A stretch of 60,726 bases of DNA from a bacterium (GTDB taxonomy: Bacteria > UBP14 > UBA6098 > JAFGQG01). Location of the stretch: the NCBI GenBank assembly GCA_016930435.1, contig JAFGGQ010000108.1, positions 1-60,726 on the forward strand, read 5' to 3'. The notes under the pieces were generated by a model. It was not told where the DNA came from and did no database searches. It saw only the letters and a list, made by a program, of their open reading frames with translations. Below, in pieces: positions 27,401 to 60,726 of this stretch (positions within the stretch are counted from its first letter, which is position 1; each line of letters starts with the position of its first letter). The position numbers were made by a program, and so were the translations under genes.

Positions 27401-30400
27401 GATTCCCCCTATCCACCGATAGGGGAATGGTGGTATAATGCCGGCACTGCCGTTGCAGGGAGCACTGCTGCAGAAGACCCCATCCATTGCGTATATTGCA
27501 GTGGATATCATGGCACCGGTTCACTGGGCGATGGCACAGGCAACTCGTTCTCTTTCTATATAGGAGAACCTTCATCTGTAACCTGGCAATGGTCACCGCA
27601 ATTAATACTCCAGGTGATCTCCGAATATGGCACCCCTATGCCACCCATGGGTTACAGCTGTATTACACCGGGCACCGAAGTAACTGCTTTCGTACCATCA
27701 CCATTCTATATCGGCTCGAATATAAGAGCAACCTGCATCGGCTGGACTGGTACCGGTTCGGTTCCCCCATCCGGCTCCGGGAATATGTTTACCTTTACCA
27801 TGAATGTGAATAGCAGTATTACATGGTTATGGGTATTAGAATACCGCTTCACCGTTAATAACCCCCTGGGGATCGATACTCCAATTCCACCCGTTGGCTC
27901 CTACTGGTATCCAAACGGTACAGAAGTTACAGGCTCGGTTACTTCACCCTTCGGGGATTATGTCTGCATCGGTTTTATCGGAACGGGTTCACTGCCCTCT
28001 TCACCCATGCCAACCTTCGCTTTTATAATCAATAGCCCATCATCGGTAACCTGGCAATGGGCTGATTTCGAGGAAACATTCTCCCTCACCGTAAATTCTC
28101 CATACGGTAATCCCCGGCCCTTTGGCACTACCTATTATGTACCCGGCACAAACCTTTCCGCAAGGGTTACCTCCCCATACTATGATACGGTTACCGAAGG
28201 CGTTCGATATATCCTTGATAACTTCGTGGGAACGGGATCCGCCCCCAGTGGCACGGATACATTATGCACTTTCATTATCAATATGAATTCAACAATTACC
28301 TGGAACTGGCATACACAATACCGGTTCGTTGTAAATAACCCTCATGGGTATGATAGCCCGGTTCCGCCGGTGGGCGAATATTGGTACGACACCGGTACAC
28401 TCGTTACCGGAAGCATCACCTCCCCGGTGGAAGACACTATAATATGTACCGGATATACTGGAACCGGTTCCCTGGTCAGCGACACCACCCTGAACTTCAG
28501 CTTTAATATCTCCAGTCCCTCCTCGGTAACCTGGGAATGGCTGGTGGAAATTTACCGTTTGACCGTGTATTCCGATTACGGCACCCCGGATCCCCCGGTA
28601 GGCGAAAACAACTATAGTCCGGGTACCGAGATCACCGCTACCGTAGATCCATCAATCCCCCTCGCAGAAGGTGAAAGGATGAGTTGTACCGGTTATACCG
28701 GTACCGGTTCGGTCCCGCCATCGGGCACCGGAAATTCGGTTACTTTCACTATCAATGCCCATTCCTCTATAACCTGGCATTGGCAACATCAATATCGCCT
28801 CGTCGTGGACAATCCCGGCGGTTATGATACCCCTGTCCCACCCGAAGGTGAGAACTGGTTTGAAGCAGGAGGGTTTGTTGATGCCTTTGTTACTTCACCG
28901 GCAGGGACCATGTACTGCGTGGGTTATTATGGCGCCGGCGATCTGCCCGATACCGTTTATGGGTATGACCATGCTGAATTCTTCATTACTCAGCCCTCAC
29001 AAATCTCATGGATCTGGCTGGGTCAAAGTTCGGTAGTACGGCTGGATGTTTTTTCCAGTTATGGCGAGCCTTACCCGGATGTCGGACTGCATTATTATCC
29101 GCGGGGTGTTAACGTAAACGCCTTTATTAACCGTTCAGATAGCATCGGAGTGGGCCGCCGTTATTTTTGTGAGGGGTTTACTGGCAGCGGATCGGTACCA
29201 TCATCAGGTTCGGACACACTGATTTCATTTATTATCAATTCGAATTCGACTGTATCCTGGCATTGGAGCCTTCAATATCGCTTTATAGTATATAATCCGG
29301 GTGGGTACGATAGCCCGTATCCCGCTGCCGGAACCTGGTGGTTCGAGTCAGGCAGTGAAATCAACGGCTCAGTGGTCTCGCCCGATGATACCATGTACTG
29401 CATTGGATACGAGGGTACCGGCGCTCTGGGTAGTGGGGTAACCCCGTATTTTAGCTTCAATCTCACTAGTCCATCCACAGTAGAATGGCTCTGGGCAGGC
29501 GAAAGTGATGTAGTCAGTTTAACGGTAAGCAGTGAATATGGCAATCCCGATCCCCCTGTAGGAACCTTCTATTATCTCCTCGGTTCATTGATCGAAGCTC
29601 AGGTGGAGAGTGAACTTCTTCCTTCACCCGGAGTGCGTCAACATTGCACCGGCTGGGAAGGTACCGGTTCGGTCCCCTCCACAGGCGATACCGCATGGCT
29701 GATCTTCGCTATTAGCCGGAATTCCGTTCTGGACTGGTCCTGGGATCTGGAATATTTCCTGGATCTGGATTATTCCGGGACGGGCGGACTGGTACCATGG
29801 CAGGTCGGCGAAGGATGGCATGCCGCAGGTTCGGAAGTTACTATCAAAACCGAGAACCCCATCGATGGAGGATTCCTGTATTACGGTTTTATCAAATGGG
29901 AATCATTCCCGCCAGGAGCTTCTATCGCCAATCCTTTCCGCGATTCCACCTCTATACTGCTGAATGATACTTATCTGCTTACAGCCGAATACGATATCGC
30001 CGTTCCATGTACAGTACGAAAAGAACCACCACAGGAGCTTGGAGTGATCTATATCGATGGTACGGAGTATTACGATCCCGTTGTACCGATGTGGTGGGCA
30101 GAACGATCCGTTCATAATATCGGGGTTTCCACACCCGATTCATCCGACGAAATTAAATATACATTCAGCCACTGGAACGATGGGGGGGCGCTTTTCCATA
30201 ATACCCCTCCAATAATCGATACTGCTAATTTTGTCGCTTTTTACGATTATCAGTACCGCTGCCGAATCGAAAAGGACCCCCTGCATGAAAACGGCTGGAT
30301 ACGCGTTGACCGGGATTATTACTATGATGACACCTGGGAAGGATGGATGGACCCCTCCGTTTATCACGAAGTGGAGGTCAGTGAGATCGATGAGGATACC

Positions 30401-31207
30401 GACCTTGGTATTCGCTACCTCTTCAACAATTGGAGCGATGGTGGCGACCGTATGCACATCATCGATTTTTCGGGCGGACCACTATTCCTTACCGCCTATT
30501 ACGATAGACAAGCCAAGTGCACCATTCTCAAGGAACCCTACCAGCGCTATGGAAGCATAACCCTGGGCGATTCTACATATTACGGAGTAGGGGAGTTGGT
30601 TTCCTGGCTTGAGCTGGGAGAAACTTACCAGATGGGCGTGAGCTGGATCGATATAAGCAGCGATTCCTCTTATACCTTCGCTTTCTGGAGCGATGGAGGA
30701 GCAAGGTTCCACGAAATCGGACCTATCGCTCATGAAGTTACTTACATCGCTTATTATAACCAGGCTTTCTTGATTTTCGATTTCGAGATAACGCCTCCTG
30801 AATGGTATATCGGACTAATGAACGTTTCCGAAACCAAGAGTATGGACCCCCGGGATGGGATCTTCATCGAAAATTCCGGAAATGTCCCCCTACAGTTCTC
30901 TCTGAATGTATCCAATCCAGGAGCATATTGGACGCCAGGGGTCAGGATCGGTTATAATCAGTTTGTTCTACGGGGGCATTTTAATGATTTAACCACGCCA
31001 CCGGATGAGTTCCACCCATATTTCGACGTAATAAAGGGTTCACCAACCCTGGCTACCGACTTTATCTTCGGCCCGGAGGGGGATTACCTGGCTCCCGACG
31101 ATGACCTTTACCTGTGGCTGCAATTCCTTTCCCCTATAGCGAGCACTGTTTACGAGGAAGAACAGATACTGATACTGACCATTACCGGCCATATCCCACT
31201 CGAGTAG
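24482..31207 (+). CDS. giant surface protein: Asp-box propeller plus alternating repeat array
   Basis: Extracellular protein of 2241 residues with an N-terminal signal or anchor helix (KVIIFIEICVIFLFLMGIAV). TTG start with AAGGAGG 7 bases upstream. Residues about 138-530 form a sialidase-type propeller with five Asp-box motifs (STDGGATF, STNGGTSF, SPTGGTSW, SYDYGGSF, SSDQGISF). No sialidase arginine triad is evident, so enzymatic activity is doubtful. A unit Z (nt 26862-27108) and a unit W (27112-27360) follow. Ten units of about 80 residues come next, in five alternating X-Y pairs, then W again and three more Z units. Z and W resemble divergent InlB B-type repeats. The C-terminal 145 residues (about 2097-2241) form a separate beta domain with no 'YPNPFN' sorting signal. 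It may be an adhesin or surface scaffold; no function is established. Confidence 0.85.
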   Translation: MRNKVIIFIEICVIFLFLMGIAVNRKPILREACELADPTCKTQPKKGLLTKTIYDPLSSTEESNIPDWVRQAVTDHLNKASYSDLVSGYRAIRQHNWDDFEALVERYRRLSIRRESPGLDESPASPLDFTSDRRVNDVSYGMQFQPAVCTGSDGIIYVTWGDDSYTGNWSIYFSKSTDGGATFTSRVLVDGVGQNMRPRIAVSGVGSAARVYIAYTYIYDAEYYDYDIYLSYSTNGGTSFGSIVGIGTSTSYEDICDIVADNAHYVYLAYTYGYTEGGGCDAEEAEVDIVLRVSPTGGTSWYSGVYIASQGDRDEYLPSLAVSGSGSGATLHFAYTYDPSGGGGADYDVYYKKITSAGSGSPSIGPMIPVATDVYDELVVPGGIDVGTDNNPQLAYIYNSPSTGDEIYYRRSYDYGGSFAGAVPVAVFTNDQTDATIALDPLNNPFIVYRDSRTGPPHIYLTWSSDQGISFNFPRIVNTPPSPSADSAFWPTISMYKPDWVRRVDIVWWDKRYDDGDIYYNGNLQNAVSLDVNFIPDTYTWGNVQFQWWAFGEHHDTTLMDATYQIWYDPDPVNFPLLDQYWSGSSASERWASVVIPSAGWNYYPPDYWVPVSPGAYTVNYYHQYYVTFHPQKGNPTTCPHTMTNAFITYYSFGAMVDTSANNISPVATWCDKNSAYTFVDTMLLSPHQRWASVSGVLGGIITGPITIDPLFYHQWKPVVFFAGLSDTNTVCTIQHYQCNIPHLECGLWDSWSEWTDCGSYVQFESLSTAGYYAIDPTTIMDTSYFTTTIRYLHEVTVRVRNDFGAGTVIVDGVTYPSPYVAEWGPSTVHSIAAVSPQAFGDSVRYIFDYWSDTGDSAHDVIIPTYSITYTAYFVAQYHVTITWTGPTGGHVPELLGEGWYEEGSLIPISTTPVFDSLVDIRYGFSHWSSFPEGAYIADISDPSTNLLVDGWYDLTANYSIQYLFAVYNPGGYDSPYPPIGEWWYNAGTAVAGSTAAEDPIHCVYCSGYHGTGSLGDGTGNSFSFYIGEPSSVTWQWSPQLILQVISEYGTPMPPMGYSCITPGTEVTAFVPSPFYIGSNIRATCIGWTGTGSVPPSGSGNMFTFTMNVNSSITWLWVLEYRFTVNNPLGIDTPIPPVGSYWYPNGTEVTGSVTSPFGDYVCIGFIGTGSLPSSPMPTFAFIINSPSSVTWQWADFEETFSLTVNSPYGNPRPFGTTYYVPGTNLSARVTSPYYDTVTEGVRYILDNFVGTGSAPSGTDTLCTFIINMNSTITWNWHTQYRFVVNNPHGYDSPVPPVGEYWYDTGTLVTGSITSPVEDTIICTGYTGTGSLVSDTTLNFSFNISSPSSVTWEWLVEIYRLTVYSDYGTPDPPVGENNYSPGTEITATVDPSIPLAEGERMSCTGYTGTGSVPPSGTGNSVTFTINAHSSITWHWQHQYRLVVDNPGGYDTPVPPEGENWFEAGGFVDAFVTSPAGTMYCVGYYGAGDLPDTVYGYDHAEFFITQPSQISWIWLGQSSVVRLDVFSSYGEPYPDVGLHYYPRGVNVNAFINRSDSIGVGRRYFCEGFTGSGSVPSSGSDTLISFIINSNSTVSWHWSLQYRFIVYNPGGYDSPYPAAGTWWFESGSEINGSVVSPDDTMYCIGYEGTGALGSGVTPYFSFNLTSPSTVEWLWAGESDVVSLTVSSEYGNPDPPVGTFYYLLGSLIEAQVESELLPSPGVRQHCTGWEGTGSVPSTGDTAWLIFAISRNSVLDWSWDLEYFLDLDYSGTGGLVPWQVGEGWHAAGSEVTIKTENPIDGGFLYYGFIKWESFPPGASIANPFRDSTSILLNDTYLLTAEYDIAVPCTVRKEPPQELGVIYIDGTEYYDPVVPMWWAERSVHNIGVSTPDSSDEIKYTFSHWNDGGALFHNTPPIIDTANFVAFYDYQYRCRIEKDPLHENGWIRVDRDYYYDDTWEGWMDPSVYHEVEVSEIDEDTDLGIRYLFNNWSDGGDRMHIIDFSGGPLFLTAYYDRQAKCTILKEPYQRYGSITLGDSTYYGVGELVSWLELGETYQMGVSWIDISSDSSYTFAFWSDGGARFHEIGPIAHEVTYIAYYNQAFLIFDFEITPPEWYIGLMNVSETKSMDPRDGIFIENSGNVPLQFSLNVSNPGAYWTPGVRIGYNQFVLRGHFNDLTTPPDEFHPYFDVIKGSPTLATDFIFGPEGDYLAPDDDLYLWLQFLSPIASTVYEEEQILILTITGHIPLE
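27364..29750 (+). repeat. five alternating X-Y protein repeats within the 2241-residue protein
   Basis: Ten units of roughly 235-248 bases (about 80 residues). Each contains a C-x-G-(Y/W/F)-x-GTGS-like core near 27512, 27746, 27980, 28228, 28460, 28700, 28931, 29181, 29412 and 29660. Odd units (X) read V-x-NPxGYDxPxPPxGxxW and end PSSVTWQW. Even units (Y) read L-x-V-x-SxYGxPxPPxG, carry GSVPPSG after the core, and end NSSITWxW. Copies differ clearly in DNA sequence, so this is an old protein repeat and not a recent tandem duplication. Confidence 0.85.
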
Positions 31208-46918: not shown

Positions 46919-47024
46919 AAAATGTTATTTAAATCTATTGTTTATATGGGAACTGAAAAAATTATATTCAGTGTCTGATTAATTTGCAGGTATGAAAATA
47001 TTGAAAAAAATGGAGCTATATGAA

Positions 47025-50000
47025 ATGAGAAAATTTACATTTTTGTTGTTTTTTTTAGGGTTATCCCTTTTGTTGTTTCCCGTTTTTGGCATGGCAAATC
47101 CTTCTCCGGAGATCACTCTTGATGAAGCCCTCCTGGATTATCCGGAGGACAGTGCTGCTTACCGGGCATGGAAGCAGAATTTCGCTTTGGAAGAGGCTTC
47201 ACGACACCCCCGGACTACTGCCCCAATGGCGTTATCCGTAAATAATGGCTATGTGGATTGCCAGATGTCCAATGGTACCGGCGCGGGTGCTTTTGAGGAG
47301 GGTGCCAGGCCTACCGGAGGGGGTTCATGGCTGAGATTAACCTACTACTATCCCTCGGTTCCATGGTCATTTTCCATTTATAAAATCGATAGTCACACCC
47401 CTGAGCAGGTTTACCGGACCGGACCGGATTGTGCCGCTATACCTGCCCCCAATTCTACTTATGTCTCAGGGGGAATTATCTATACTGTCTGGAATAACCG
47501 TTATGGCGTCAAGATCGTTCAAGAACTATCCTGTGTGGCATTGGGAGCGGTGCGCGGCGATAATGAACAGGTAAAATGCACTACCAAGTTCATCCCGGTG
47601 GATGGCAGTTGCCATAATTGCGGATGCCTGGTCTATTATGACACCAGGCTTAATAGCAATGATGGCGCTCCGATCTCTACCGCTTATGGTTATACGGGCC
47701 TTGCAGAGATATTTTTTGCTCCATCAATACCAAGTATCTGGCGAGCCTATGAACACGGGTACCCCCCCGGTGCCGGGGATCTGCAGGCCCTGGGCATCCT
47801 CGTGGGCTTTGAAGCTACAATGCCGGATGTGTTCTGGTGCGGCCGCTGGCCAGCATCATATATAAATGGCTGGGATGACTCATACTGGATTGCAGATGCC
47901 ACCGGCGATTTCGGATCTGATACCGCAACAATGGTCAAATGGTACCAGCGCAATGTCTGCCCCGGAGATACACTCGTATTCACTACATACTATGGAATCG
48001 GCGATATGGGCGAGTTCCCAATCGTACAGATCGTTCATACCCCGCCCGAATTCATCGCTACTTGCGTCGATGTTATCCCAAATCCCTTCACGATTAATGC
48101 CCAGATCTCCAATATCGGCAACGGCAATGCCTCCAATGTTAATGCAACCCTGAACCTCTCCGGTTCCGGGCTGTCACTGGTAAGCGGGGCTAATCCACAG
48201 AATCTGGGAACACTGGTTTCTTTTACCGGAATGAACACCGCCTCCTGGTCAGTAAGTATCCCCCCAAGCCGATATGGCACTACTGTTTGTTATGATATCA
48301 GCGTCAATTACCGAAACCCGGACTACTCGTATTCCACAGAAACCGAGACTTATTGTGTTGATATTCCGGAATTGTATGATGTCACAGCTACCGCAACCTC
48401 CGAATTGCCTTCTCTCTGTGCCGGGGAATGTACACGCCTGCACGCATTATACTCGGGGGGCGCCCCAGGCGGCACCGAGGAATGGTCCACTACATTCGAA
48501 CCTACTAACGGAGGATTCAGCGGAACCGGAAGCTGGGAATGGGGTAATCCCGATCAGTATTTCGACGTCTGGGACCTCGCTTTCGAAGGGCCATCCGATG
48601 CCTATTCAAATCCTAATTGCTGGGGGACTGATCTGGATTACATGTACGGAACGGATAATGCCAACTGGGTTTTAAACTCACCTGAGATCAGCCTTGTTTC
48701 AGCTGTCAACCCGGTTCTGACGTTCTATCACTACATGGATTGTGAGAGTTACTTTGATGGGGGCAATGTCAAGATATCCACCGATGGCGGGGGTTCCTGG
48801 ACCCTGATCAACCCGGTTGGTGGTTATCCCGAGGATGCCGCTTCTGGAAGCAATGCCGCAATACCCGGGCAAGCATGCTATTCCGCATCTACCGGGGGCT
48901 GGGTTCGGGCCGAATTCAACCTCAATGCCTATATCGGCAGAAATATCCGTATCCGGTTCCAATTCGGCACAGATTTTTCAGTCAATGATTACCCCGGCTG
49001 GTATATCGACAATTTCCGGATTACCGGACTGGGTTCAGCCTTCGAATCATTCCGATGGTGGCCATCAACCGGGCTATCCAGCACCACTGCCCCGGATCCC
49101 AATGCCTGTCCTACTACTACTACCACCTATTATGTGGAAGTTGATTTAGGTTATGGCTGTATCGATACCGCAATGGTGACCATTGTTGTAAATCCCTCAC
49201 CAACCGTGGTGGTTTATGACGCCTACCTGTGTGAGGGGGAATCAATCACTTTGACCGCCTATGCAAGTCCATCCACCGGGGTTACCTATTATTGGAGTCC
49301 GGGTGGTTACAATACGCCGGAGATCACCGTTAGTCCCAGCGTATCTACGGATTACATCGTAACCGTCTCCGCAGGAGGTTGTTTAGGAGTGGATACCGCA
49401 CATGTTATGGTATTTCCTTCGCCCACTGTAACCCTGAATACGGATACGATATGCGCTGGCGAGTATGCCCGTCTTGAGGCTACGGTTACCCCACCCGGTG
49501 GCACAGTCAGCTATTGGTGGGAACCCGGTGGTTATACAACCTCATCCATTGATGTAATGATAACCGAGACTACCCAGTTTGTAGTTTCCGTAATGCGTGA
49601 TGGCTGCCCGGGTGCTGATACTACAACCGTTTATGTAGAGCCTACTCCGTTGGTAACGGTTGAGTCCGAAAGCATCTGTGCCGGCGATGGCGCCCGGCTC
49701 GAAGCCACTGTAAGCCCTGCTGACGGCGACATTTCCTATTTCTGGGAACCCGGGGGCTATAATACCCCGTCTATAGATGTTTTTCCAACCGAAAATACCG
49801 CCTATACGGTTATGGTTACCCGAAATGGCTGCGCCTCACGTCCCGATACCGCAACGGTGTTCGTCAGCCCCCCGATATTCATCGACCCGGGAAGAGAAAA
49901 TACTATCATGATTGGCGAATGCGTTGAGCTTGGCGGAGCCCCTACTGCCACCGGAGGATTCCCGGGATTAAGTTACCAGTGGATTCCCACAGCCGGATTG

Positions 50001-53000
50001 GATGAACCTTCCTCACCCAATCCACGGGCTTGCCCACTGGATACCACAATCTATTGTGTGGTGGTCACCGATACTATCGGATGTTGGGACTCCGCATGCG
50101 TTACCATTATTGTCCTCTTCGACACCATCGGGCCCATAGCCGAGATAATTGAACCGCTGCCCGGAACCTTCTCCGCCTGTGAAGACCAACGTATTATAAT
50201 CGTCATTACCGATGATTACGGGGTAGATCGTACTACCCTTGAACTGCAGGTGGACAGGGATATCTATACAAATGATTCACCCGAAATAAGCTGGTCCGGA
50301 GATACCGTGTTCTTCACCCCACCCCTCGACTTCTGGGCGGATGGACAGGTGGTATCGGTCAGCCTCATCAGGGCGGATGACATATACGGCAATCCCCTGC
50401 AAAGAGCCCCTATCGAATGGACCTATACCATGGACTTCGCCCCACCCGTCGCCTGGGGAGAATTCCCGCCTGCCGATACCATTGTGACAACCTCCTCACC
50501 GGTGATCACTGTTTTCGTCGCTGATAGCGGATCAGGACTGGATTATAGCGAAATGGGCCTGTTTGTCAATGGCGTATATTATCCCTATGATACCACCGGA
50601 ATGCGGTTCGATCCGGTCAGCGGGGAACTTAATTTCGACCCCTCCGCGCTGGGGGTCCGGTTCAATGACGGTGATACAGTGGAAGTATGCCTGGTCGGAG
50701 CCCAGGATATGCCAGATTATTGCCGGCCGAACGTTATTATCGATTATTGCTGGGAATTCCATGTGGTTATTGCCGAACTTTATGCCCTGATTATCGAACC
50801 TTTCAACGGGGCTTATTCCGCCTGCGATGACCAGCGCATAATTATTGAACTGGTTAGCCCTTATACTATCGATACTACTACCATCGAACTTTTCGTGGAA
50901 GCTGAATTCTACGATATCTCCCATGAGTGGCTCACCTTCGAGTATGACAGCCTGCTTATTTTTCAACCGCCTGCAGCATACTGGATCGATGCCCAGGTCG
51001 TGGAAGTGGTACTTGCCCGTGCAGATGATATTTACGGATTCCCACTCGATGATTCACTCTCCTGGAGCTTTATTATTGACCTTTCACCCCCTGTATTAAC
51101 CAATCCCTCCCCGTTCACGGATGATGTGGTAGCCGACTCAACCCCATTGCTTTCCTTTGACCTGGCGGACTCATTGAGCGGTCTGGATGAGAGTACCCTG
51201 GAATTGACCATAGGAGGTTACACGGTGAGTATCGGGGACCCCGGCGTAAGCTGGGACGGCTCTCATTTCGAATTGGATTGCGAAACCGCCGGTATAACCT
51301 TCCGTGATAACGATACGGTAACCGTTTGCCTTTATGCCGAAGACTCCCCCGATTATTGCGACCCCAATATCCTGGATACATGCTGGACCTTTGTGGTTGT
51401 CCTCGCCGGCCCCATCGCTACTATACTTGAACCCCTGAATGACACCTACACCGCTTGCAATGACCAGTGCATTTACATAACCATTGTGGATGAAGATGGG
51501 GTGGATATAAGAACCATAGAGCTGGAAGTGAATTCCGTGGTCTATACCATCTCCACTCCGGAATTATCCTATTCAGGGGACACACTGATCTTCTGCCCTC
51601 TATTTCTCTGGGAGGATGGCGAGACAGTAAATGTCCACCTTTTGCAAGCCGATGATATCTGGGGTAATGGCCTGCAGAACCATCCCCTGTGGTTCTTTAT
51701 CGCCGATCTTTCAGAACCCCTCTTCGGAGGGGAGTGGCCCCTGAACAATAGCGTGGTGGCCGATCCCTATCAGGAGATCATGGTCTCCGCCTGGGATAGC
51801 CTGAGCGGACTCAGCGATTCCTCGATACTAATCACTGTCAACGGACTTCCTTATTCCCTTCTCACTCCTGGTATGTTCTTTAGCTGGGATTCCACGGGCG
51901 CTATCCCGGTGCTTTCGATTGAGGTTGAACCGGAGAGTCTGGGCCTGGAATTCGCCCACAATGAAACGGTATCGGTATGCATCTATGCCCATGATTCACC
52001 GGATTATTGTGCCCCTAATGATGGCCAGCAATGCTGGGAGTTCTCGGTAGATCTGCTCGGTCCCGTGGCTGACCTGGAATTTCCTTTTAATGGAGCCATA
52101 AGCTCCTGCGCTGACCAGGGCGCTATAATCACTATCCGGGACAGGGAAGAAGACCACGGGGTGGATACAGCCAGCCTGGTTTACCAGGTTACTGTTGCGG
52201 ATACCATTTTAGCCTATCCTGATTTCCGCTGGGAGCACCCGGAAACCCTCTTCTTTGAACCGTTTGCTCCGATCTGGAATAATAACGATTCGGTAACTGT
52301 CAGCCTTTTAGATGCCCGTGACTCGCTGGGGAATGGCCTGGATAGCCTGTACCGGTGGTGGTTCTGGGTGGACCTGGAGCATCCGTGGCTGATAAATACT
52401 TATCCCGCTCCAGGTGCCGAGATCGGCGATCTAAGCCCAACAATATCATTCGTTATGCTTGATAATCTTGCCGGCGTAGCCCTGGATTCCACCCGGATAA
52501 GCGTAAACGGTGTCTGGTATGAGTTGAGCGATCCGGCATTCTACCGGACTGATTCGCTTTATCGCTTTTCCTGCACCGCTGCCGGGATCCTTTTCGCAGG
52601 CGGCGACGCTGTTGAGATCTGCGTCCGTGGAATAGACTGGCCGGACCTCTGTGAACCCAATACACTGGATACCTGCTGGAATTTTGCCATACCCGTGGGA
52701 GGGCCCATCGGGATTATCATTGAACCCCTGAATAACACATATTCAGCCTGCCATGATCAAAATATACTGATGCTGGTACAGGACCCCGATGGTGTTCTCG
52801 ACAGTACCATAGTCCTGGAAGTGAATACCATATCATATACTACCTCCGATCCCGAACTCCGTTATGACGATGACACCCTGCGGTTCGTCCCCTCAGATTC
52901 CTGGACAAATGGCGATGTTGTTTCCGTTACCCTCCTCGCGGCAGATGATATTTATTTCAATCCGCTGGAAGCTGTAGTTAGCTGGAGTTTCATTATCGAC

Positions 53001-56000
53001 CTTACTCCCCCGGTGGTAACCGGTATCAGCCCCGTACCGGGGAGCGTAATCTATACTACCTGCCCTATCCTGGAATTTGATTTGACCGACGCCCTGAGCG
53101 GATTGGATGAAAGTTCGGTATCGGTGGAGATTAATGCCCGGTCATTCCGGTTGACCGATCCTTATGTGGATTGGGATGGATCGGGCTTCAGTCTTGATCT
53201 CTGTGCGGCGGGATTCGATTTCTCGGGGGGAGATGTTTTGAATATCTGCCTTTATGCCGGGGATTCACCGGATTATTGCCCACCCAATGTTCTGGATACC
53301 TGCTGGACCGTTCGTATTGCCGGCGGGGGGCCCATTGCAGCTATAATCAGTCCATTGAACGAAACCTTCACCGCCTGTAATCCCGAAACAATTTACGTTT
53401 CGCTCTTTGATTCCAACGGGGTGGACGATACTACTATTAACCTAATGGTAAATGGCACGGACTACTCTATCGGGGATGATGAACTGAATTATGAGGACGA
53501 CCTTTTAATTTTTACCGGCGGCACACATTTCTGGGCGGATGGAGATGTTGTGTCAGTGCAGCTAACCCGGGCTGATGATATACTGGGCAATCCCCTGGAA
53601 ACCCCCCTTAGCTGGACCTTCACGGTGGATTATTCCCCTCCCTACCATTTTGATGAGCACCCTGGCATCGGAACAGTTGTTGAAGATTTCTCACCTCTGA
53701 TCTGGTTTTCCCTGACGGATGACCTTTCCGGCCTGGATAGCGCTACGGTGACGGTTAGCATAAACGGCATCTGGTATGACCTTGAGGAAGATGCTCTATG
53801 GTGGGGTTCCGAAGAAATTTATTTTGATCCTGACCTGGTGCCCGTTGAATTCCCTCCGGGCTCGGTTGTGGAAGTATGTGTTTCCGCTTATGATCTGCCT
53901 GATTATTGCGATCCCAATCACTCTCTGGATTGCTGGGAGTTTGATATCGCACGGGGCGGTCCGGTGGCAGCTATTATCAACCCCTTTCCCAATACCTATT
54001 CCGCCTGCGAAGATCAGGGTATTATCGTCTCTATCGTTGATTCAAATGGCGTGGTGCCTTCTACCATACAACTCGAAGTTAATTCGGTAGTCTATACCGT
54101 TGATGATGACGAACTGACCTTCGAGGATGATCTCCTGACCTTTATCCCGGAACCCTATTTTGAAGACGGAATGACCATTCACGTCCATTTGTTGGCGGCC
54201 GAGGATTCCATTGGGAACACCCTTGAAACTGATCTGGAGTGGGAATTTATTATGGACCTCTCACCCCCGGCGGCCTGGGAATTGACCCCTGCCGGAGGCA
54301 GTGTAGTTAGCGAGCCCTCTCCCTCAATCAGTTTCAGAATTGTAGATATCCTGAGCGGTCTGGCAGAAAGCTCGGTTACATTGACCGTTGCGGGAACCCC
54401 ATTCGACGTTCTCTCTTCCTGCGTTTACTGGGATGGGGAACTGTTTGAACTGAATACCGGTTGCGCTGGTTTGTCCTGGCCGGGCGGTACACGAATAGAG
54501 GCTTGCCTCACAGCCTGGGATCTGCCCGATTATTGTGATCCTAATACATTGGAAGTATGCTGGTATTTTAATATCGCTACCGGCGGCCCGGTAGCCGAAA
54601 TAGTTATCCCATTCGATGGCGCTATCTCTGCCTGTGAAGACCAGGAGATACACATCTACCTGTTCGATATCGATGGGGTGGATCCTGCTACTATCGAACT
54701 GCATATCGGCGATTCTATATATTCTATTGATGATGACCGGTTGAGCTACCTGGGTGATACCCTCTTCTTCATACCCGGGTCGGGTTACTGGATGGATAAC
54801 CAGGTTGTACCGGTAGCCCTTACTGCCGCGGATGACCTCCTGGGCAATGGCCTGGAGGCCGCGCCCGTTGAAGGTGTTTTCTATCTGGACCTTTCCGGGC
54901 CGGTGACTTCCAACTTCCTCCCCGATGATGGCGCTGATATCTATGACTGGCAACAGCTTATTCAGGTGGACCTCGCGGATAATCTGCTGGGAGTGGATCC
55001 CGCCAGCATTAATCTTCAATTAGAAGGGGTTTACCGGGCAACGGTTCCCCTGCTTTTGAACCTTAGCAATGCAGGATTAGCCTGGGACGGAAGCACCATT
55101 ACGCTGGATCCATCGTCCGTCGATGATGCCGCATGGGGTATAGTTTACCTCCCCCAGGAAGATTCACTTACCGGAACCGGAATATACTTCCCTGAATTTG
55201 ACTCGATCAGGGTAACAGTATATGCCAGGGATAACGAACCCGATTACTGCGAGCCCAATTATATCGAGGGGATCAATTACTGGGCATTTTATATCCCGGA
55301 TGATGACTTGATGGGCCCCCGTTATGCTGAGTTTGCACCACTTTACCGGCCAACCCGGATCCCATTCGAGATATCCTGCAACCTCATAGATTCCTCCGGA
55401 ATATGGGGTGATAGTGTTTATACAATCTATCAGGATAATCGCGGATCAAGAACAGATACCATAAACCTGGAAGCTGCACCCGGGGCGGATACCGCTGTTG
55501 TGAACGGCGAATATGTCATCAGTTTTCTTTCCAGTGAAAATCTACCCGCTTTTCCGGATACTTGCACGGTGAAATTTGTGGTCTATGCTTACGACAATGA
55601 TCATGATTTTCTGAATCCCCTGGACCGAACCCAAACCCTCGATTCATTCTATGTAATGATACTGCAGGGCCCTACTGCAAACGTGATCGAGCCGCTTCCT
55701 ATGACCATAACTTCCTGCGCGGACCAGCGCATCCTGATCACCCTTTACGACGAGGATGGCGTCGATCCATCTACAATTAATCTGCACGTAGAAGCGGACA
55801 GCTATAATATTGACCATAATTGGCTGGAGTATTTCGAAGCGGAAAGCCTGTTAGTATTCACACCGGATTTTGCCCTGTTCTCTAACGAGCAATTGGTTGA
55901 TGTCTCTATTGTAAACGTGGAGGATAACCTGGGAAATCCAATGTGGGATACCCTTGCCTGGAGCTTCTATGTTGACCTCGAAGCCCCTGTCTGTTCACTG

Positions 56001-56621
56001 GAATATCCCTATGTTGGGATGATGCTTCAGGATCCCAACCCTATTATTGAGATCCGTGTTGATGACAATCTGGCTGGAGTCTGGCCGGATACAATCAGCC
56101 TGAATATAAACGGATTGGATTATACCGTCGCCGATGACGGTATTTACTGGTATTTCGATGATGACAACATAAATGGAAATTTAGTGGTGAACAGCGAAGC
56201 GGCCTCGGTTTACTTCGCCCCCGGGGATACCGTCAATATCAGGTTGAGGGTGGGAGATAAACCGGATTACTGCGCTCCCAATATGTCCCGGTGGGATTGG
56301 TGGTTTACCATCGAACCCAGGGTCTCCTGCTACGCCGCTCCCAATCCCTTTACACCGAATAACGATAATTACAATGATTATATACTCTTTCATTATCCAA
56401 GGATGTTCAGCACCGATGCGAATGTCTCCATCTATGATCTCCGGAATGTAAAGGTATGGGAAAAAACTGTCCCAAGTGTAAATGAGATCACCGATTATCT
56501 TGAACGCACCTGGGATGGGCGGGATACCAAGGGGAAAATCCTGCCGGAGGGGATTTATATCTATGTGCTCCAGGTGGAAGGCAAGGTGGAATGTACCGGT
56601 TCCATTATTTTGGCTCGTTAA
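47025..56621 (+). CDS. giant secreted protein with nine A-B Ig-like modules and gliding/FlgD-type C-terminus
   Basis: A 3198-residue extracellular protein. I start at 47025 (signal peptide MRKFTFLLFFLGLSLLLFPV; GGAG 9 bases upstream); an in-frame ATG at 46992 would add 11 residues. In order: an unrecognised N-terminal region (to about 340), a CARDB-like stretch, and an immune inhibitor A/MAM-like domain (about 485-672). Three or four PKD/Ig-like repeats follow (about 718-1030), with the recurring ICAG and YWWEPGGY motifs. Nine tandem A-B modules cover residues 1036-3098. The C-terminal domain has YAAPNPFTPNNDNYNDYI, VSIYDLRNVKVWEKT and WDGRDTKGKILPEGIYIYVL, like the gliding-associated/FlgD-Ig type. 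It probably serves as a surface adhesin or scaffold; function not established. The next gene begins 44 bases later. Confidence 0.86.
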   Translation: MRKFTFLLFFLGLSLLLFPVFGMANPSPEITLDEALLDYPEDSAAYRAWKQNFALEEASRHPRTTAPMALSVNNGYVDCQMSNGTGAGAFEEGARPTGGGSWLRLTYYYPSVPWSFSIYKIDSHTPEQVYRTGPDCAAIPAPNSTYVSGGIIYTVWNNRYGVKIVQELSCVALGAVRGDNEQVKCTTKFIPVDGSCHNCGCLVYYDTRLNSNDGAPISTAYGYTGLAEIFFAPSIPSIWRAYEHGYPPGAGDLQALGILVGFEATMPDVFWCGRWPASYINGWDDSYWIADATGDFGSDTATMVKWYQRNVCPGDTLVFTTYYGIGDMGEFPIVQIVHTPPEFIATCVDVIPNPFTINAQISNIGNGNASNVNATLNLSGSGLSLVSGANPQNLGTLVSFTGMNTASWSVSIPPSRYGTTVCYDISVNYRNPDYSYSTETETYCVDIPELYDVTATATSELPSLCAGECTRLHALYSGGAPGGTEEWSTTFEPTNGGFSGTGSWEWGNPDQYFDVWDLAFEGPSDAYSNPNCWGTDLDYMYGTDNANWVLNSPEISLVSAVNPVLTFYHYMDCESYFDGGNVKISTDGGGSWTLINPVGGYPEDAASGSNAAIPGQACYSASTGGWVRAEFNLNAYIGRNIRIRFQFGTDFSVNDYPGWYIDNFRITGLGSAFESFRWWPSTGLSSTTAPDPNACPTTTTTYYVEVDLGYGCIDTAMVTIVVNPSPTVVVYDAYLCEGESITLTAYASPSTGVTYYWSPGGYNTPEITVSPSVSTDYIVTVSAGGCLGVDTAHVMVFPSPTVTLNTDTICAGEYARLEATVTPPGGTVSYWWEPGGYTTSSIDVMITETTQFVVSVMRDGCPGADTTTVYVEPTPLVTVESESICAGDGARLEATVSPADGDISYFWEPGGYNTPSIDVFPTENTAYTVMVTRNGCASRPDTATVFVSPPIFIDPGRENTIMIGECVELGGAPTATGGFPGLSYQWIPTAGLDEPSSPNPRACPLDTTIYCVVVTDTIGCWDSACVTIIVLFDTIGPIAEIIEPLPGTFSACEDQRIIIVITDDYGVDRTTLELQVDRDIYTNDSPEISWSGDTVFFTPPLDFWADGQVVSVSLIRADDIYGNPLQRAPIEWTYTMDFAPPVAWGEFPPADTIVTTSSPVITVFVADSGSGLDYSEMGLFVNGVYYPYDTTGMRFDPVSGELNFDPSALGVRFNDGDTVEVCLVGAQDMPDYCRPNVIIDYCWEFHVVIAELYALIIEPFNGAYSACDDQRIIIELVSPYTIDTTTIELFVEAEFYDISHEWLTFEYDSLLIFQPPAAYWIDAQVVEVVLARADDIYGFPLDDSLSWSFIIDLSPPVLTNPSPFTDDVVADSTPLLSFDLADSLSGLDESTLELTIGGYTVSIGDPGVSWDGSHFELDCETAGITFRDNDTVTVCLYAEDSPDYCDPNILDTCWTFVVVLAGPIATILEPLNDTYTACNDQCIYITIVDEDGVDIRTIELEVNSVVYTISTPELSYSGDTLIFCPLFLWEDGETVNVHLLQADDIWGNGLQNHPLWFFIADLSEPLFGGEWPLNNSVVADPYQEIMVSAWDSLSGLSDSSILITVNGLPYSLLTPGMFFSWDSTGAIPVLSIEVEPESLGLEFAHNETVSVCIYAHDSPDYCAPNDGQQCWEFSVDLLGPVADLEFPFNGAISSCADQGAIITIRDREEDHGVDTASLVYQVTVADTILAYPDFRWEHPETLFFEPFAPIWNNNDSVTVSLLDARDSLGNGLDSLYRWWFWVDLEHPWLINTYPAPGAEIGDLSPTISFVMLDNLAGVALDSTRISVNGVWYELSDPAFYRTDSLYRFSCTAAGILFAGGDAVEICVRGIDWPDLCEPNTLDTCWNFAIPVGGPIGIIIEPLNNTYSACHDQNILMLVQDPDGVLDSTIVLEVNTISYTTSDPELRYDDDTLRFVPSDSWTNGDVVSVTLLAADDIYFNPLEAVVSWSFIIDLTPPVVTGISPVPGSVIYTTCPILEFDLTDALSGLDESSVSVEINARSFRLTDPYVDWDGSGFSLDLCAAGFDFSGGDVLNICLYAGDSPDYCPPNVLDTCWTVRIAGGGPIAAIISPLNETFTACNPETIYVSLFDSNGVDDTTINLMVNGTDYSIGDDELNYEDDLLIFTGGTHFWADGDVVSVQLTRADDILGNPLETPLSWTFTVDYSPPYHFDEHPGIGTVVEDFSPLIWFSLTDDLSGLDSATVTVSINGIWYDLEEDALWWGSEEIYFDPDLVPVEFPPGSVVEVCVSAYDLPDYCDPNHSLDCWEFDIARGGPVAAIINPFPNTYSACEDQGIIVSIVDSNGVVPSTIQLEVNSVVYTVDDDELTFEDDLLTFIPEPYFEDGMTIHVHLLAAEDSIGNTLETDLEWEFIMDLSPPAAWELTPAGGSVVSEPSPSISFRIVDILSGLAESSVTLTVAGTPFDVLSSCVYWDGELFELNTGCAGLSWPGGTRIEACLTAWDLPDYCDPNTLEVCWYFNIATGGPVAEIVIPFDGAISACEDQEIHIYLFDIDGVDPATIELHIGDSIYSIDDDRLSYLGDTLFFIPGSGYWMDNQVVPVALTAADDLLGNGLEAAPVEGVFYLDLSGPVTSNFLPDDGADIYDWQQLIQVDLADNLLGVDPASINLQLEGVYRATVPLLLNLSNAGLAWDGSTITLDPSSVDDAAWGIVYLPQEDSLTGTGIYFPEFDSIRVTVYARDNEPDYCEPNYIEGINYWAFYIPDDDLMGPRYAEFAPLYRPTRIPFEISCNLIDSSGIWGDSVYTIYQDNRGSRTDTINLEAAPGADTAVVNGEYVISFLSSENLPAFPDTCTVKFVVYAYDNDHDFLNPLDRTQTLDSFYVMILQGPTANVIEPLPMTITSCADQRILITLYDEDGVDPSTINLHVEADSYNIDHNWLEYFEAESLLVFTPDFALFSNEQLVDVSIVNVEDNLGNPMWDTLAWSFYVDLEAPVCSLEYPYVGMMLQDPNPIIEIRVDDNLAGVWPDTISLNINGLDYTVADDGIYWYFDDDNINGNLVVNSEAASVYFAPGDTVNIRLRVGDKPDYCAPNMSRWDWWFTIEPRVSCYAAPNPFTPNNDNYNDYILFHYPRMFSTDANVSIYDLRNVKVWEKTVPSVNEITDYLERTWDGRDTKGKILPEGIYIYVLQVEGKVECTGSIILAR
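50130..56322 (+). repeat. nine tandem A-B protein modules
   Basis: Each module has an A domain opening with ...N-x-(T/A)-(Y/I/F)-(S/T)-AC-x-DQ and a B domain ending D-x-PDYC-x-PN...CW-x-F. The A-domain cysteine codons lie at 50178, 50823, 51456, 52107, 52749, 53376, 54006, 54633 and 55716. The spacings are 645, 633, 651, 642, 627, 630, 627 and 1083 bases, all multiples of three. The long last interval includes an unrelated insert (about 55310-55660). A tenth copy lies in the next gene (cysteine codon at 58610). The DNA copies are well diverged. Confidence 0.88.
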
Positions 56622-56665
56622 TTTGTGTTCTGATTATAACGGAATCAAGGGTTAGGAGTTGATCA

Positions 56666-59600
56666 ATGGGTAGAGTATTTGCGATATCCCTGCTCTTGTT
56701 GGGAGTAATTTGGGCTGTTGGGTATAGTTATGATTATTGGGTTCCTGTTGTCGATACTTCAATCGCTATTGGACTTGTTGTGCCCTCAATGGGAACAGGC
56801 TGGGCTGTAGACGCTTCGCAACTGAGTACTATTGGATATGTTTTTGATACTTTACCCAATACATCTGGTATAGGCACGCTGATGGAGTATGATGTTATTA
56901 TCTTACCTAATTGCTGGGGATATTACCTGACTGATTTTAATACTTTCGAATCACATGCGGATGATTATAAGGAATATGTGAGGGAGGGTGGATATTTGAT
57001 CATCGAACAGACAAATCCCTTCAGCGGATTCAGCATAGAGGAAGTGCTCCCGGAGCTGGTACCCTGTACTTTCAAGATGAAGAACCGCTATTCAGCTGCA
57101 GACCACGGGGTGGATTTACTCCGGCCGGAGCACCCTCTATTCGATGGTGTGGGTCCTTCCGATTATCATCGGGCGGCTGATACGGATACCCTGATCCCAT
57201 CCTCCTGGGAGGTTCTGGCGGTGAATGTCCCATCTGAAAACCCCGCTATACTGACCACCCATTACGGTGATGGTTATATTTTAAGGCACTCCATGGTCCC
57301 CTCCTCTATATCCGATGCTGCGGTCATCAATATAATAGAATGGGATGGTTCCGGGTGTCGAACACTCTGTCTGGAGGATGTGGAGTGTGAAATTCCGGGG
57401 GTCTGGCCCCAATTCCATTTCGATGCTCAGAACCGGGGCTTAAGCCCATATATCTGCCCCTGTGATTCCGCAAATGTCCGGGTTCTATGGACCTTTATGA
57501 CCGGCGGAGCTGTGCAATCTTCACCCGCCCTGGATGAAAATTGCATCCTCTATATCGGCTCAAACGACAGTAATTTGTACGCCCTGAATGTAACCGGGGG
57601 TGAATTATTGTGGGTCTATCACACAGGAGGGAGCATTGGGTACTCTTCTCCCGCTCTGGGACCGGATGGTTCTGTTTACATTGCCGCGTCGGACGGCTAT
57701 CTCTATGCGATAGATCATTCCGGCGCCCTGACATGGAGTTATCTCACCCGATTCGATGTAGGAGGCGTAAAGGGCTCTCCGACTATCGATTATTCACTCA
57801 GCCGGGTCTATGTCTGCTCCGATCATACTAACTCACCATGGGCTGGATGGCTAACCTGCCTCGGCCTGGACGGCACCTTCTATTGGGAAGCGTATCCCCC
57901 AATTAGCGGAAGCTGGATCTCCACCACACCCGCAGTGGATGAAGAGTCCTTTATCCTAACCACTGATTGGGCAAACACACCGGGCGGTTTGACACTCTGG
58001 AGTACCTCGGGTATTGACCAGTGGACCTGGGCATCCTCATCGGTGATAGGGGAGATGGACATTATGTCCTGCCCGGCGGTGGATGATTCCCGTGACAGGG
58101 TCTATTTCGGGGGTAATAAATTTGCAGCCAATCCCACTGCACAGAAGATATTCGCGGTTGATTACAGCGGGGCAACCTCAACCCTCGCCTGGGAAGTGAA
58201 TATCGCTTCCGACGTGCAATATTCCACCGCCGCCATAGGCCCTGATGGCGCTGTATATATCGGGGCAAATAATGGCAATGTCTATGCATTTGAGCCTGAT
58301 GGAACAATCCGCTGGACTTTCCTTACCGGCGGCGCGGTAAGATCATCCCCGGTGGTGGACAGCAACTCGGTGGTCTATGTAGGCTCTGCGGATAATAATC
58401 TCTATGCTATTAATCCCGATGGAACTGAGCGGTGGCATGTAACCACCGAAGGGCCGGTCAACTCCTCAGCCGCTATCGGTCCGGACGGGATCATCTTCTT
58501 CGGTTCCAACGATGGCAATATTTACGCTGTCGGTTGTCATACCCCGGGCTGGTGCGATGCCGCACCGGAAGGCCAGATAATAGAACCACTTCCGTACACT
58601 ATAACCGCTTGCCCGGAACAACCGATCCGCATCCTCCTTACCTGCTCATTGCCCCTGGATACCGCTTCTATAATCCTGGGTGTGAATACTGATATGTATC
58701 TCTACCCGGACCAACTTGTGCTGCAAGGGGATACACTAATCTTCACTCCGGATGCATCATGGGATAACGGGGATGAACCGGAGGTGAGCCTGCTCCGGGC
58801 AGACAATATCAACGGAACCCCTCTGGATTCCATTATTACCTGGCTGTTCACGGTGGACCTGGAACCACCACTCGCCCAATACCCCGAACCGCCAGGAGGC
58901 TCAATACTCGGTGAACTACCTGAAATGATAACTATCGAACTATACGATGAGATTTCCGGGATTGAGCCAGGCTCTATTCAACTTAGTATTAACGGAATGT
59001 TTTTTGATCTTACTTCACCAGCCCTGCACTGGAATAATGATACCCTCAGCTTCTTCCCATATTCCGCGGAAAGCCTGCTCCTCGCTGATAGTATGCTACT
59101 GACTATCTTTGGTGCGTATGACTCTCCTGATTATTGCGAGCCCAATTTGATGGAACCCTTTAGCTGGGTCTATTACCTGGATTATATGCAGGCCTGGTTT
59201 AGAGATACCATCGCTTTCCCGGGGGATACTATCTTAATACCGGTATGGATAGACGAACCCTCGCGGTTCAGGATTGCCGATTTTGACTTTGAATTCTTCT
59301 TCTTCCCGGAAATCCTGCATGTTCTGGCAATCGAAAATGAAGGTACCGCCTCGGAAGACTGGGAAACGCTACTGTTCGACACACCAGAAGATGGACACAC
59401 TGTTGTCAGCGGAAGTGGCTCCGGGTTCTTGACCAGCAATGAGGTGATCTGCTATATCAAAGTCGCTATCTTGCCAACTGCTGTTCAGGGCGGTTACTCA
59501 CCCCTGAATTTCGGGACTTTTACCCTGAATGAGGGTAGTCTAACCTGCCAGACTGAAAATGCCCTGCTGCTAATAAACTGGTTGCCCCTGGAATGGCTTT

Positions 59601-60726
59601 TCGAATTAGAGGTTACTGGAGCATCTTCCCGGAAAAAAGAGGTACTGGTCATCGGAACATCGGGTTCCGGTACGGATGGCTACGATCCCGGGGCTGATAT
59701 AATCGCATTACCTCCAACTGAATCCATTGATGCCTATTTCCCTATGGACGATGAAGCGTTTCCTCATATAAGGAAACTCCAAAGGGATATCCGGTATTAT
59801 ATGGGTTTCCCGATCTGCTGGACCATTGTACTTGAGGGGGAAAGCGGCATGATCAGCTGGAATCCCGAATATCTTCCTTCCGGGATGTTCCTGCTGGACG
59901 GATACCTAAATATGAGCCTGCAGACACAACACTATTTTAGGGAGGGAGACACGGTAGAGGTCTGTTTTGACCGGCCCCGCCCGGGAGCAGGTACGATAGA
60001 ATTTTGCACGGGATGGAACCTCGTCTCATTTTATGCGCTCCCTCAATCTTCTGACCTGACGAGTATCTTCCCTGATATAATCCCCAATTTCTTCGGATAT
60101 GAACCACTAACCCGCTCCTATCAATCGTACTCTGAATTGCAGGCCGGCCGGGGTTACTGGGTATATTCGCTGAGGGACACCATCGTTAGATTCGGGGGGA
60201 TTGCCATAGAAAATTACTACTCCCTGCTCGATCAGGGCTGGAATCTGGTGGGGTCTGTAAATGCGGCGGTGCCGGTGATTAATATCAGCGGCCGGATCGA
60301 AACACCCCTTTACTTCTGGAATTGCAGCGCTTATGAACCCACGGACAGTATAACTCCCGGCATGGGATGCTGGGTACTGGTCAGCGCGACCGCCTGTACC
60401 CTTGAAGTATCCGGAGCAGAGGGCGCTGCGCTTTTCTACAGGGAATTGATCCCGGCATCATCTATGAATTATGGACATTACCCGCCAGGGCCTCCCTCCG
60501 GCCAGGGATACTTGACCGACCCTCTACCTCGTAAGTTCAGCGTTAAAATATACCCCAATCCCTTTAATATTCAGGTATCCATCAGTTTGGCCTTGAGCGA
60601 AACGGATAATGTTGTGATCGAGATCTTTGACCTCCATGGGAAAACCGTATATTCTGTACAATGGAACAACCTGGATCCAGGCTTTTATGACCTCACCTGG
60701 GAGGGCGTCGATAACCAGCAGAGAAA
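56666..60726 (+). CDS. giant secreted protein: GATase-like domain, PQQ propeller, A-B module, cohesin-like and sorting domains (3' partial)
   Basis: Open to the window end, with 1353 codons visible; probably only a few dozen residues are missing. The start is ATG with TAGGAG 7 bases upstream and a signal peptide (MGRVFAISLLLLGVIWAVGY). Residues about 30-215 look like a class I glutamine-amidotransferase/ThuA-like fold (EYDVIILPNCWGYY, REGGYLIIEQ). A PQQ-type beta-propeller follows (about 255-630), with at least five blades, such as VQSSPALDENCILYIGSNDS and LYAINPDGTERW. One A-B module spans about 640-830. A cohesin-like domain lies at about 847-965 (FPGDTILIPVWIDE, DFEFFFFPEILHVLAI). The visible chain ends in a sorting domain (VKIYPNPFNIQVSISLAL, VIEIFDLHGKTV). 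It shares the A-B module with the preceding gene, 44 bases away, so the two are probably co-transcribed. Confidence 0.84.
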   Translation, partial: MGRVFAISLLLLGVIWAVGYSYDYWVPVVDTSIAIGLVVPSMGTGWAVDASQLSTIGYVFDTLPNTSGIGTLMEYDVIILPNCWGYYLTDFNTFESHADDYKEYVREGGYLIIEQTNPFSGFSIEEVLPELVPCTFKMKNRYSAADHGVDLLRPEHPLFDGVGPSDYHRAADTDTLIPSSWEVLAVNVPSENPAILTTHYGDGYILRHSMVPSSISDAAVINIIEWDGSGCRTLCLEDVECEIPGVWPQFHFDAQNRGLSPYICPCDSANVRVLWTFMTGGAVQSSPALDENCILYIGSNDSNLYALNVTGGELLWVYHTGGSIGYSSPALGPDGSVYIAASDGYLYAIDHSGALTWSYLTRFDVGGVKGSPTIDYSLSRVYVCSDHTNSPWAGWLTCLGLDGTFYWEAYPPISGSWISTTPAVDEESFILTTDWANTPGGLTLWSTSGIDQWTWASSSVIGEMDIMSCPAVDDSRDRVYFGGNKFAANPTAQKIFAVDYSGATSTLAWEVNIASDVQYSTAAIGPDGAVYIGANNGNVYAFEPDGTIRWTFLTGGAVRSSPVVDSNSVVYVGSADNNLYAINPDGTERWHVTTEGPVNSSAAIGPDGIIFFGSNDGNIYAVGCHTPGWCDAAPEGQIIEPLPYTITACPEQPIRILLTCSLPLDTASIILGVNTDMYLYPDQLVLQGDTLIFTPDASWDNGDEPEVSLLRADNINGTPLDSIITWLFTVDLEPPLAQYPEPPGGSILGELPEMITIELYDEISGIEPGSIQLSINGMFFDLTSPALHWNNDTLSFFPYSAESLLLADSMLLTIFGAYDSPDYCEPNLMEPFSWVYYLDYMQAWFRDTIAFPGDTILIPVWIDEPSRFRIADFDFEFFFFPEILHVLAIENEGTASEDWETLLFDTPEDGHTVVSGSGSGFLTSNEVICYIKVAILPTAVQGGYSPLNFGTFTLNEGSLTCQTENALLLINWLPLEWLFELEVTGASSRKKEVLVIGTSGSGTDGYDPGADIIALPPTESIDAYFPMDDEAFPHIRKLQRDIRYYMGFPICWTIVLEGESGMISWNPEYLPSGMFLLDGYLNMSLQTQHYFREGDTVEVCFDRPRPGAGTIEFCTGWNLVSFYALPQSSDLTSIFPDIIPNFFGYEPLTRSYQSYSELQAGRGYWVYSLRDTIVRFGGIAIENYYSLLDQGWNLVGSVNAAVPVINISGRIETPLYFWNCSAYEPTDSITPGMGCWVLVSATACTLEVSGAEGAALFYRELIPASSMNYGHYPPGPPSGQGYLTDPLPRKFSVKIYPNPFNIQVSISLALSETDNVVIEIFDLHGKTVYSVQWNNLDPGFYDLTWEGVDNQQR

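Follow-up and report, generated by a model that had tools for sequence, protein, structure and literature searches.

Module-encoding genes of the window

The window, i.e. the whole stretch of 60,726 nucleotides analysed here, harbours two consecutive ORFs encoding copies of a two-domain (A-B) module (Table 1). Nine modules of ~210 residues each are located within ORF 46992-56621, and a single one is encoded by the ORF starting at position 56666, which runs past the window end (56666-60724). The first product had been annotated as a 3198-residue protein; this length applies to a start at MRKFTFLL, whereas the first ATG of the ORF yields 3209 amino acids.

Four cysteine positions (numbered along the module) recur. 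In agreement with the first-pass annotation, the A-domain cysteine (C15) and the PDYC/PDLC cysteine (C192) are present in 10/10 modules, the motif around C15 being of the ACxDQ type with the variants ACNPE in module 6 and ACPEQ in module 10. The reported distribution of the VxxC (C182) and CW (C200) cysteines, both present in modules 1-7 and both absent from modules 8, 9 and 10, was likewise reproduced. Extra cysteines in modules 2-5, 7, 9 and 10 had been omitted there; judged by the family-wide pairs described below, modules 3 (19-61), 5 (120-167) and 7 (154-168) each contain a third putative pair. The insert between modules 8 and 9 had no match in a Pfam search, and the spacing of its two cysteines resembles that of the classical Ig B-F pair. 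Elsewhere in the window (24482-31207), an ORF of 2241 residues with a TTG start and 27 cysteines is likewise devoid of Pfam matches.

Table 1 Modules and associated domains encoded in the window, with cysteines (residue numbers of the respective protein; module positions in brackets) and predicted pairs
Feature	Position	Strand	Cysteines and remarks
Module 1 (domains A+B)	50136..50771	+	C1063 (15), C1233 (182), C1244 (192), C1253 (200); predicted pairs 15-192 and 182-200
Module 2	50784..51404	+	two canonical predicted pairs; lone C1430 (166; window 51279-51281)
Module 3	51414..52055	+	two canonical predicted pairs; putative C1493-C1535 (19-61, strands B-E of A)
Module 4	52065..52700	+	two canonical predicted pairs; lone C1861 (166; window 52572-52574)
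Module 5	52707..53324	+	two canonical predicted pairs; putative C2024-C2071 (120-167, strands B-E of B)
Module 6	53334..53957	+	two canonical predicted pairs; query of the structure models
Module 7	53964..54584	+	two canonical predicted pairs; putative C2477-C2491 (154-168)
Module 8	54591..55301	+	predicted pair 15-192 only (C2548, C2753); B domain longer; different domain next
Insert of other type (~124 aa) between modules 8 and 9	55302..55673	+	C2796, C2858
Module 9, array end	55677..56318	+	predicted pair 15-192 only (C2909, C3094); lone C3001 (105)
CHU_C / type B T9SS sorting-like C-terminal domain	56338..56618	+	
Module 10, single, in next gene	58574..59188	+	predicted pair 15-192 only (C649, C824); lone C660 (26)

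Extent of the module family

A profile of the ten modules detected 145 module matches on ~30 contigs of the own genome, with 1 to 18 modules per protein, and at least 46 matches in each of 16 further genomes belonging to its class. Outside the class, 7 of 44 genomes had any module match, nearly all of them weak. A two-module scan yielded eight loci in MAGs; the habitat of some MAGs was read from isolate names (e.g., Zod_ for Zodletone spring), and a literature search retrieved no papers naming the MAGs that carry these loci. The A-B module has no model of its own in Pfam or NCBIfam. The nearest, Big_5 (PF13205), produced one sub-threshold match to the 3209-aa protein (20.2 bits vs a cut-off of 23.6) and matched 36 of 115 two-module homologue sequences at E <= 0.001 (best 2.6e-11). 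A sequence search of the PDB revealed no solved structure related to the module.

Covariation of cysteine pairs

Overall, 374 module matches were extracted, 314 of which were near full length; 266 remained after removal of those with >62 % identity. Among these non-redundant modules, C182 and C200 were both present in 204 and both absent in 61, while only C182 occurred in one and only C200 in none (Fisher p = 6.7e-60); chance is excluded as the source of this pairing at the family level. The homologous sites of domain A, 76-93, gave counts of 36/0/0/230 (both/first only/second only/neither; 266 modules), 15-192 of 257/1/2/6 and 186-196 of 14/2/0/250 (266 modules each), and 180-202 of 9/0/2/254. 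Further covarying pairs are 124-163, 19-61, 120-167, 154-168, 21-59, 126-161 and 74-95. In a tree for which the cysteine columns had been masked, positions 182 and 200 changed on the same branch in 27 of 27-28 parsimony changes, 76 and 93 in 19/19, and 15 and 192 in 5/6.

The earlier proposal that the VxxC and CW cysteines bond to each other is supported by these data, homologues only rarely retaining one of the two (3/347 modules). In two of these three exceptions the second cysteine is located one or two columns off, and one is a partial match; the three look like alignment shifts or an incomplete match. Since the optional bridges appear and disappear in matching pairs, pairing partners can be read from sequence.

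Every cysteine was explained by the pair list in 165 of 314 modules, compared to 43 (sd 4.9) in shuffles, the list having been picked from the same data. Two predicted disulfides per module, as originally suggested, represent the typical number, which is not fixed, however, and ranges from none to four or more. Unpaired cysteines amount to 236 of 1576 (~15 %), C166 being foremost. The latter occurs in 31 of the 211 middle modules, but not in any first or last module with a complete end. No partner for C166 was found within the module and no consistent one in the next; C75 of the neighbouring module was considered and rejected, as the two co-occur in several arrays, but not reliably.

Some arrays deviate from the common layout. 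The divergent five-module array L078 has YGCP in place of PDYC, its cysteine being displaced by one column, and one of its copies has the F-G pair at 180-202 instead. In L097 and L088, the BC loop of domain A contains in some modules (those with a gap after model position 25-29) an insertion of ~150-190 residues that resembles a nested domain; these modules have additional cysteines in the A-domain F-G hairpin.

Strand ladders and fold

The positions of the covarying pairs add up to constant sums: 382 for 180-202, 182-200 and 186-196 (strands F-G of B), 287 for 120-167, 124-163 and 126-161 (B-E of B), 169 for 76-93 and 74-95 (F-G of A), and 80 for 19-61 and 21-59 (B-E of A). This is the pattern expected of antiparallel neighbours, and the pairs define four antiparallel ladders. 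An AlphaFold2 model (pLDDT 97) comprises seven to eight strands in each of the domains A and B; it has strands F at 178-187, G at 196-205, B at 123-128 and E at 161-164, and positions 182 and 200 face each other on the antiparallel strands F and G. The model is not fully independent of the covariation, because it was built from the same alignment. Together with PDB fold matches to Ig, cadherin and S-layer chains, it substantiates the Ig-like fold, which had initially been assigned by appearance only. Direct-coupling analysis with all cysteines masked still recovered the ladder contacts 179-203 and 187-195 (sum 382) as well as an A-B interface at 12-131, 12-132, 14-189, 11-191 and 69-131. The pTM of A-B alone (0.88 vs 0.69 for a two-module, four-domain tandem) is consistent with A-B being a firm unit, and by the same models the B-A joint between modules would be looser.

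The 15-192 pair as predicted staple within the module

C15 and C192 sit inside the A-B interface obtained by direct coupling. In 227 adjacent module pairs, both modules showed internal coupling across the patch 10-16 x 187-194 (max z 8.1 and 7.9), and within-module coevolution around 15-192 reaches z 5.5-8. Six modules lack both cysteines, and in the five joint-loss modules shown in full, C192 is replaced by glycine (PDYG or similar). The pair by itself varies too little for a strong test; based on joint loss, coevolution and Ig-tandem geometry taken together, however, the predicted 15-192 bond is a staple that connects domain A to domain B of the same module.

The first-pass annotation had allowed the two invariant cysteines to bond either within a module or to the neighbouring one; the former part stood, the latter did not. 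A bond from C192 of one module to C15 of the following one, by which the array would be zipped up, is extremely improbable. The near-constant presence of both cysteines is compatible with it, since presence cannot distinguish intra- from inter-module bonding. Single modules, however, retain C15 and C192 at 93.5 % each, and where both are lost jointly the neighbour is unaffected: in L098, module 29-259 lost the two and the next module (274-489) keeps them. Moreover, C192 of one module and C15 of the following one were discordant in 4 of 5 informative pairs, and the residues around them are not coupled between modules, the patch from B of one module to A of the next reaching a max z of 1.6 in the 227 adjacent pairs.

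Position rule for the 182-200 pair

Of 245 modules with another module directly behind them, 230 contained the 182-200 pair, compared to 13 of the 66 remaining ones, i.e. single or last modules or those with another domain next (p 1.5e-33). By class, its frequency is 94 % in middle, 90 % in first, 20 % in last and 19 % in single modules. The non-followed modules of the window are exactly module 8 (124-aa foreign domain next), 9 (last) and 10 (single). The three joint losses are therefore not random but track position, a rule that the first-pass annotation had not noticed.

It is quite possible, if somewhat short of an even chance, that the rule reflects mere descent, i.e. two old terminal clades without 182-200 and no function linked to whatever comes next in the chain; this reading concerns the position rule only and leaves the disulfide pairing untouched. 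Two clades, one with 19 and one with 17 tips, indeed consist mostly of non-followed modules, and terminal modules also differ at the columns 175, 117 and 206. Against descent alone, ~10 loss branches were wholly or mostly non-followed vs 8 followed, with non-followed modules representing 66 of 311 (binomial p 0.0015; branches counted by hand on a tree with weakly supported deep nodes). Furthermore, the closest followed module has C182 where the non-followed one is without it in 46 cases, compared to a single reverse case. Relatedness accounts for part of the position rule. As a guess at function, an F-G clip might guard the last hairpin of a module against strand exchange with a similar neighbour.

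A corresponding cysteine in domain A, C86, occupies the FG-loop site matching C192 and was found in 9 of 29 first, 2 of 31 single and 0 of 246 other modules. A cysteine at this site occurs in 5 of 5 first or single modules preceded by a domain of the Cys-PNPF type vs 11 of 65 others (p 4e-4), which suggests that C86 may connect domain A by a similar staple to the domain in front of it.

Export and oxidation context

The first protein carries a C-terminal CHU_C sorting domain (37.7 bits, cut-off 27), while TIGR04131 stayed below its cut-off. In the second, the protein being cut by the window end, Por_Secre_tail scored 26.6 vs 27. Of 17 genomes (the own one and 16 of the class), SprA was found in 16, with TIGR04189 above its cut-off in 15, the own genome included, and C25 peptidases in all 17. 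Two features of T9SS substrates, a C-terminal sorting domain and a SprA translocon in the same genome, were found.

Although numerous disulfides outside the cytoplasm are predicted, DsbA, DsbB, VKOR and Thioredoxin_4 exceeded the cut-off in 0 of the 17 genomes; DsbD_TM was detected in 8. A Bacteroides control was negative for the former four as well, so an unrecognised oxidase is just as likely as none at all. Among the hallmarks of disulfide proteins, covarying paired cysteines were thus present, a known oxidase in the genome was not. Oxidation in vivo is not assured, given that no oxidase was recognisable in these genomes and that some relatives originate from a sulfidic spring.

The missing canonical oxidase would also agree with a metal-binding or free-thiol set of cysteines, in which paired loss would be loss of a metal site, the ligands of one metal likewise being expected to disappear jointly. 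The cysteines are lost, however, as independent pairs and not as quartets (182-200 and 15-192 separately), and at least six other pairs occupy ladder positions that directly face each other, as is typical of cross-strand disulfides but not of a single site. We therefore consider metal or thiol sites improbable, and disulfide bonding remains the preferred reading.

A broader proposal is tentative and, as a whole, rather unlikely: position within the chain would determine the disulfides, with the F-G clip of domain B needed ahead of another module and C86 in domain A of some first modules stapling it to the foreign domain in front, and the bonds would form in anoxic and partly sulfidic surroundings by means of an oxidase outside DsbA/DsbB/VKOR.

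Proposed architecture and significance

The computations delineate the modules, their fold, the cysteine pairings by covariation and the position rule. Very probably, the family represents a two-domain Ig-like module with a 15-192 staple, an optional, position-dependent 182-200 clip and further optional paired disulfides, employed in shafts of surface or secreted proteins. Each copy would consist of two beta sandwiches, A and B, that form a rigid pair. The near-invariant disulfide between C15 (start of strand B, domain A) and C192 (FG loop, domain B) would hold domain A at its C-terminal pole to the N-terminal pole of domain B in the same module, and an optional one between C182 (strand F) and C200 (strand G) would clip the last hairpin of B, being kept mainly where the chain enters another module and usually dropped in single or last modules or before another domain. 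Further optional disulfides would be gained and lost pairwise on the same strand ladders. The modules are likely exported and serve as stiff shafts with joints in large proteins that are secreted or located at the surface and have T9SS-like sorting ends. Bond formation in vivo, a role in stiffening and surface localisation are inferred.

In these uncultured bacteria, the family amounts to a natural disulfide-scanning experiment: one fold exists in hundreds of copies, among which individual cross-strand bonds are gained, lost or shifted by one ladder rung. Disulfide pairing, strand register and domain interface thereby become readable from sequence alone. This raises the questions by which route bacteria without the usual oxidases would arrive at so many disulfides and for what reason one of them is dropped by the module at the array end.

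Comparison with known systems

The idea of inferring disulfide connectivity from cysteines that are lost jointly is established (PMC4498770), and cross-strand disulfides are already known from Ig-like adhesin repeats (PMC10619420). The giant adhesin of Mobiluncus mulieris contains a long Ig-like array with intramolecular cross-links, in which, as predicted for the A-B arrays, a disulfide joins two adjacent strands of one sheet. Unlike the A-B module, its repeats also carry ester and isopeptide cross-links, and its two-domain crystal structures display a flexible interdomain linker and no interdomain disulfide (PMC10619420). Big_5 and other bacterial Ig-like families have the fold class in common with the A-B module; Big_5, however, includes neither an obligate pair of unlike domains nor a disulfide between domains as predicted here. 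The best Foldseek matches, the tandem Ig chains of titin and contactin, are likewise composed of successive Ig-like beta sandwiches, yet share 7-17 % identity with the module at whole-chain TM-scores of ~0.2-0.5. ZP modules resemble it in being two-domain, extracellular and equipped with disulfides that vary and reshuffle in evolution, but they are animal (nematode) proteins, and no sequence relation is claimed (PMC7456536). Against this background, the following appear to be new: the module family itself, an interdomain staple that is nearly obligate, the broad range of bond positions scanned by nature, and the position rule.
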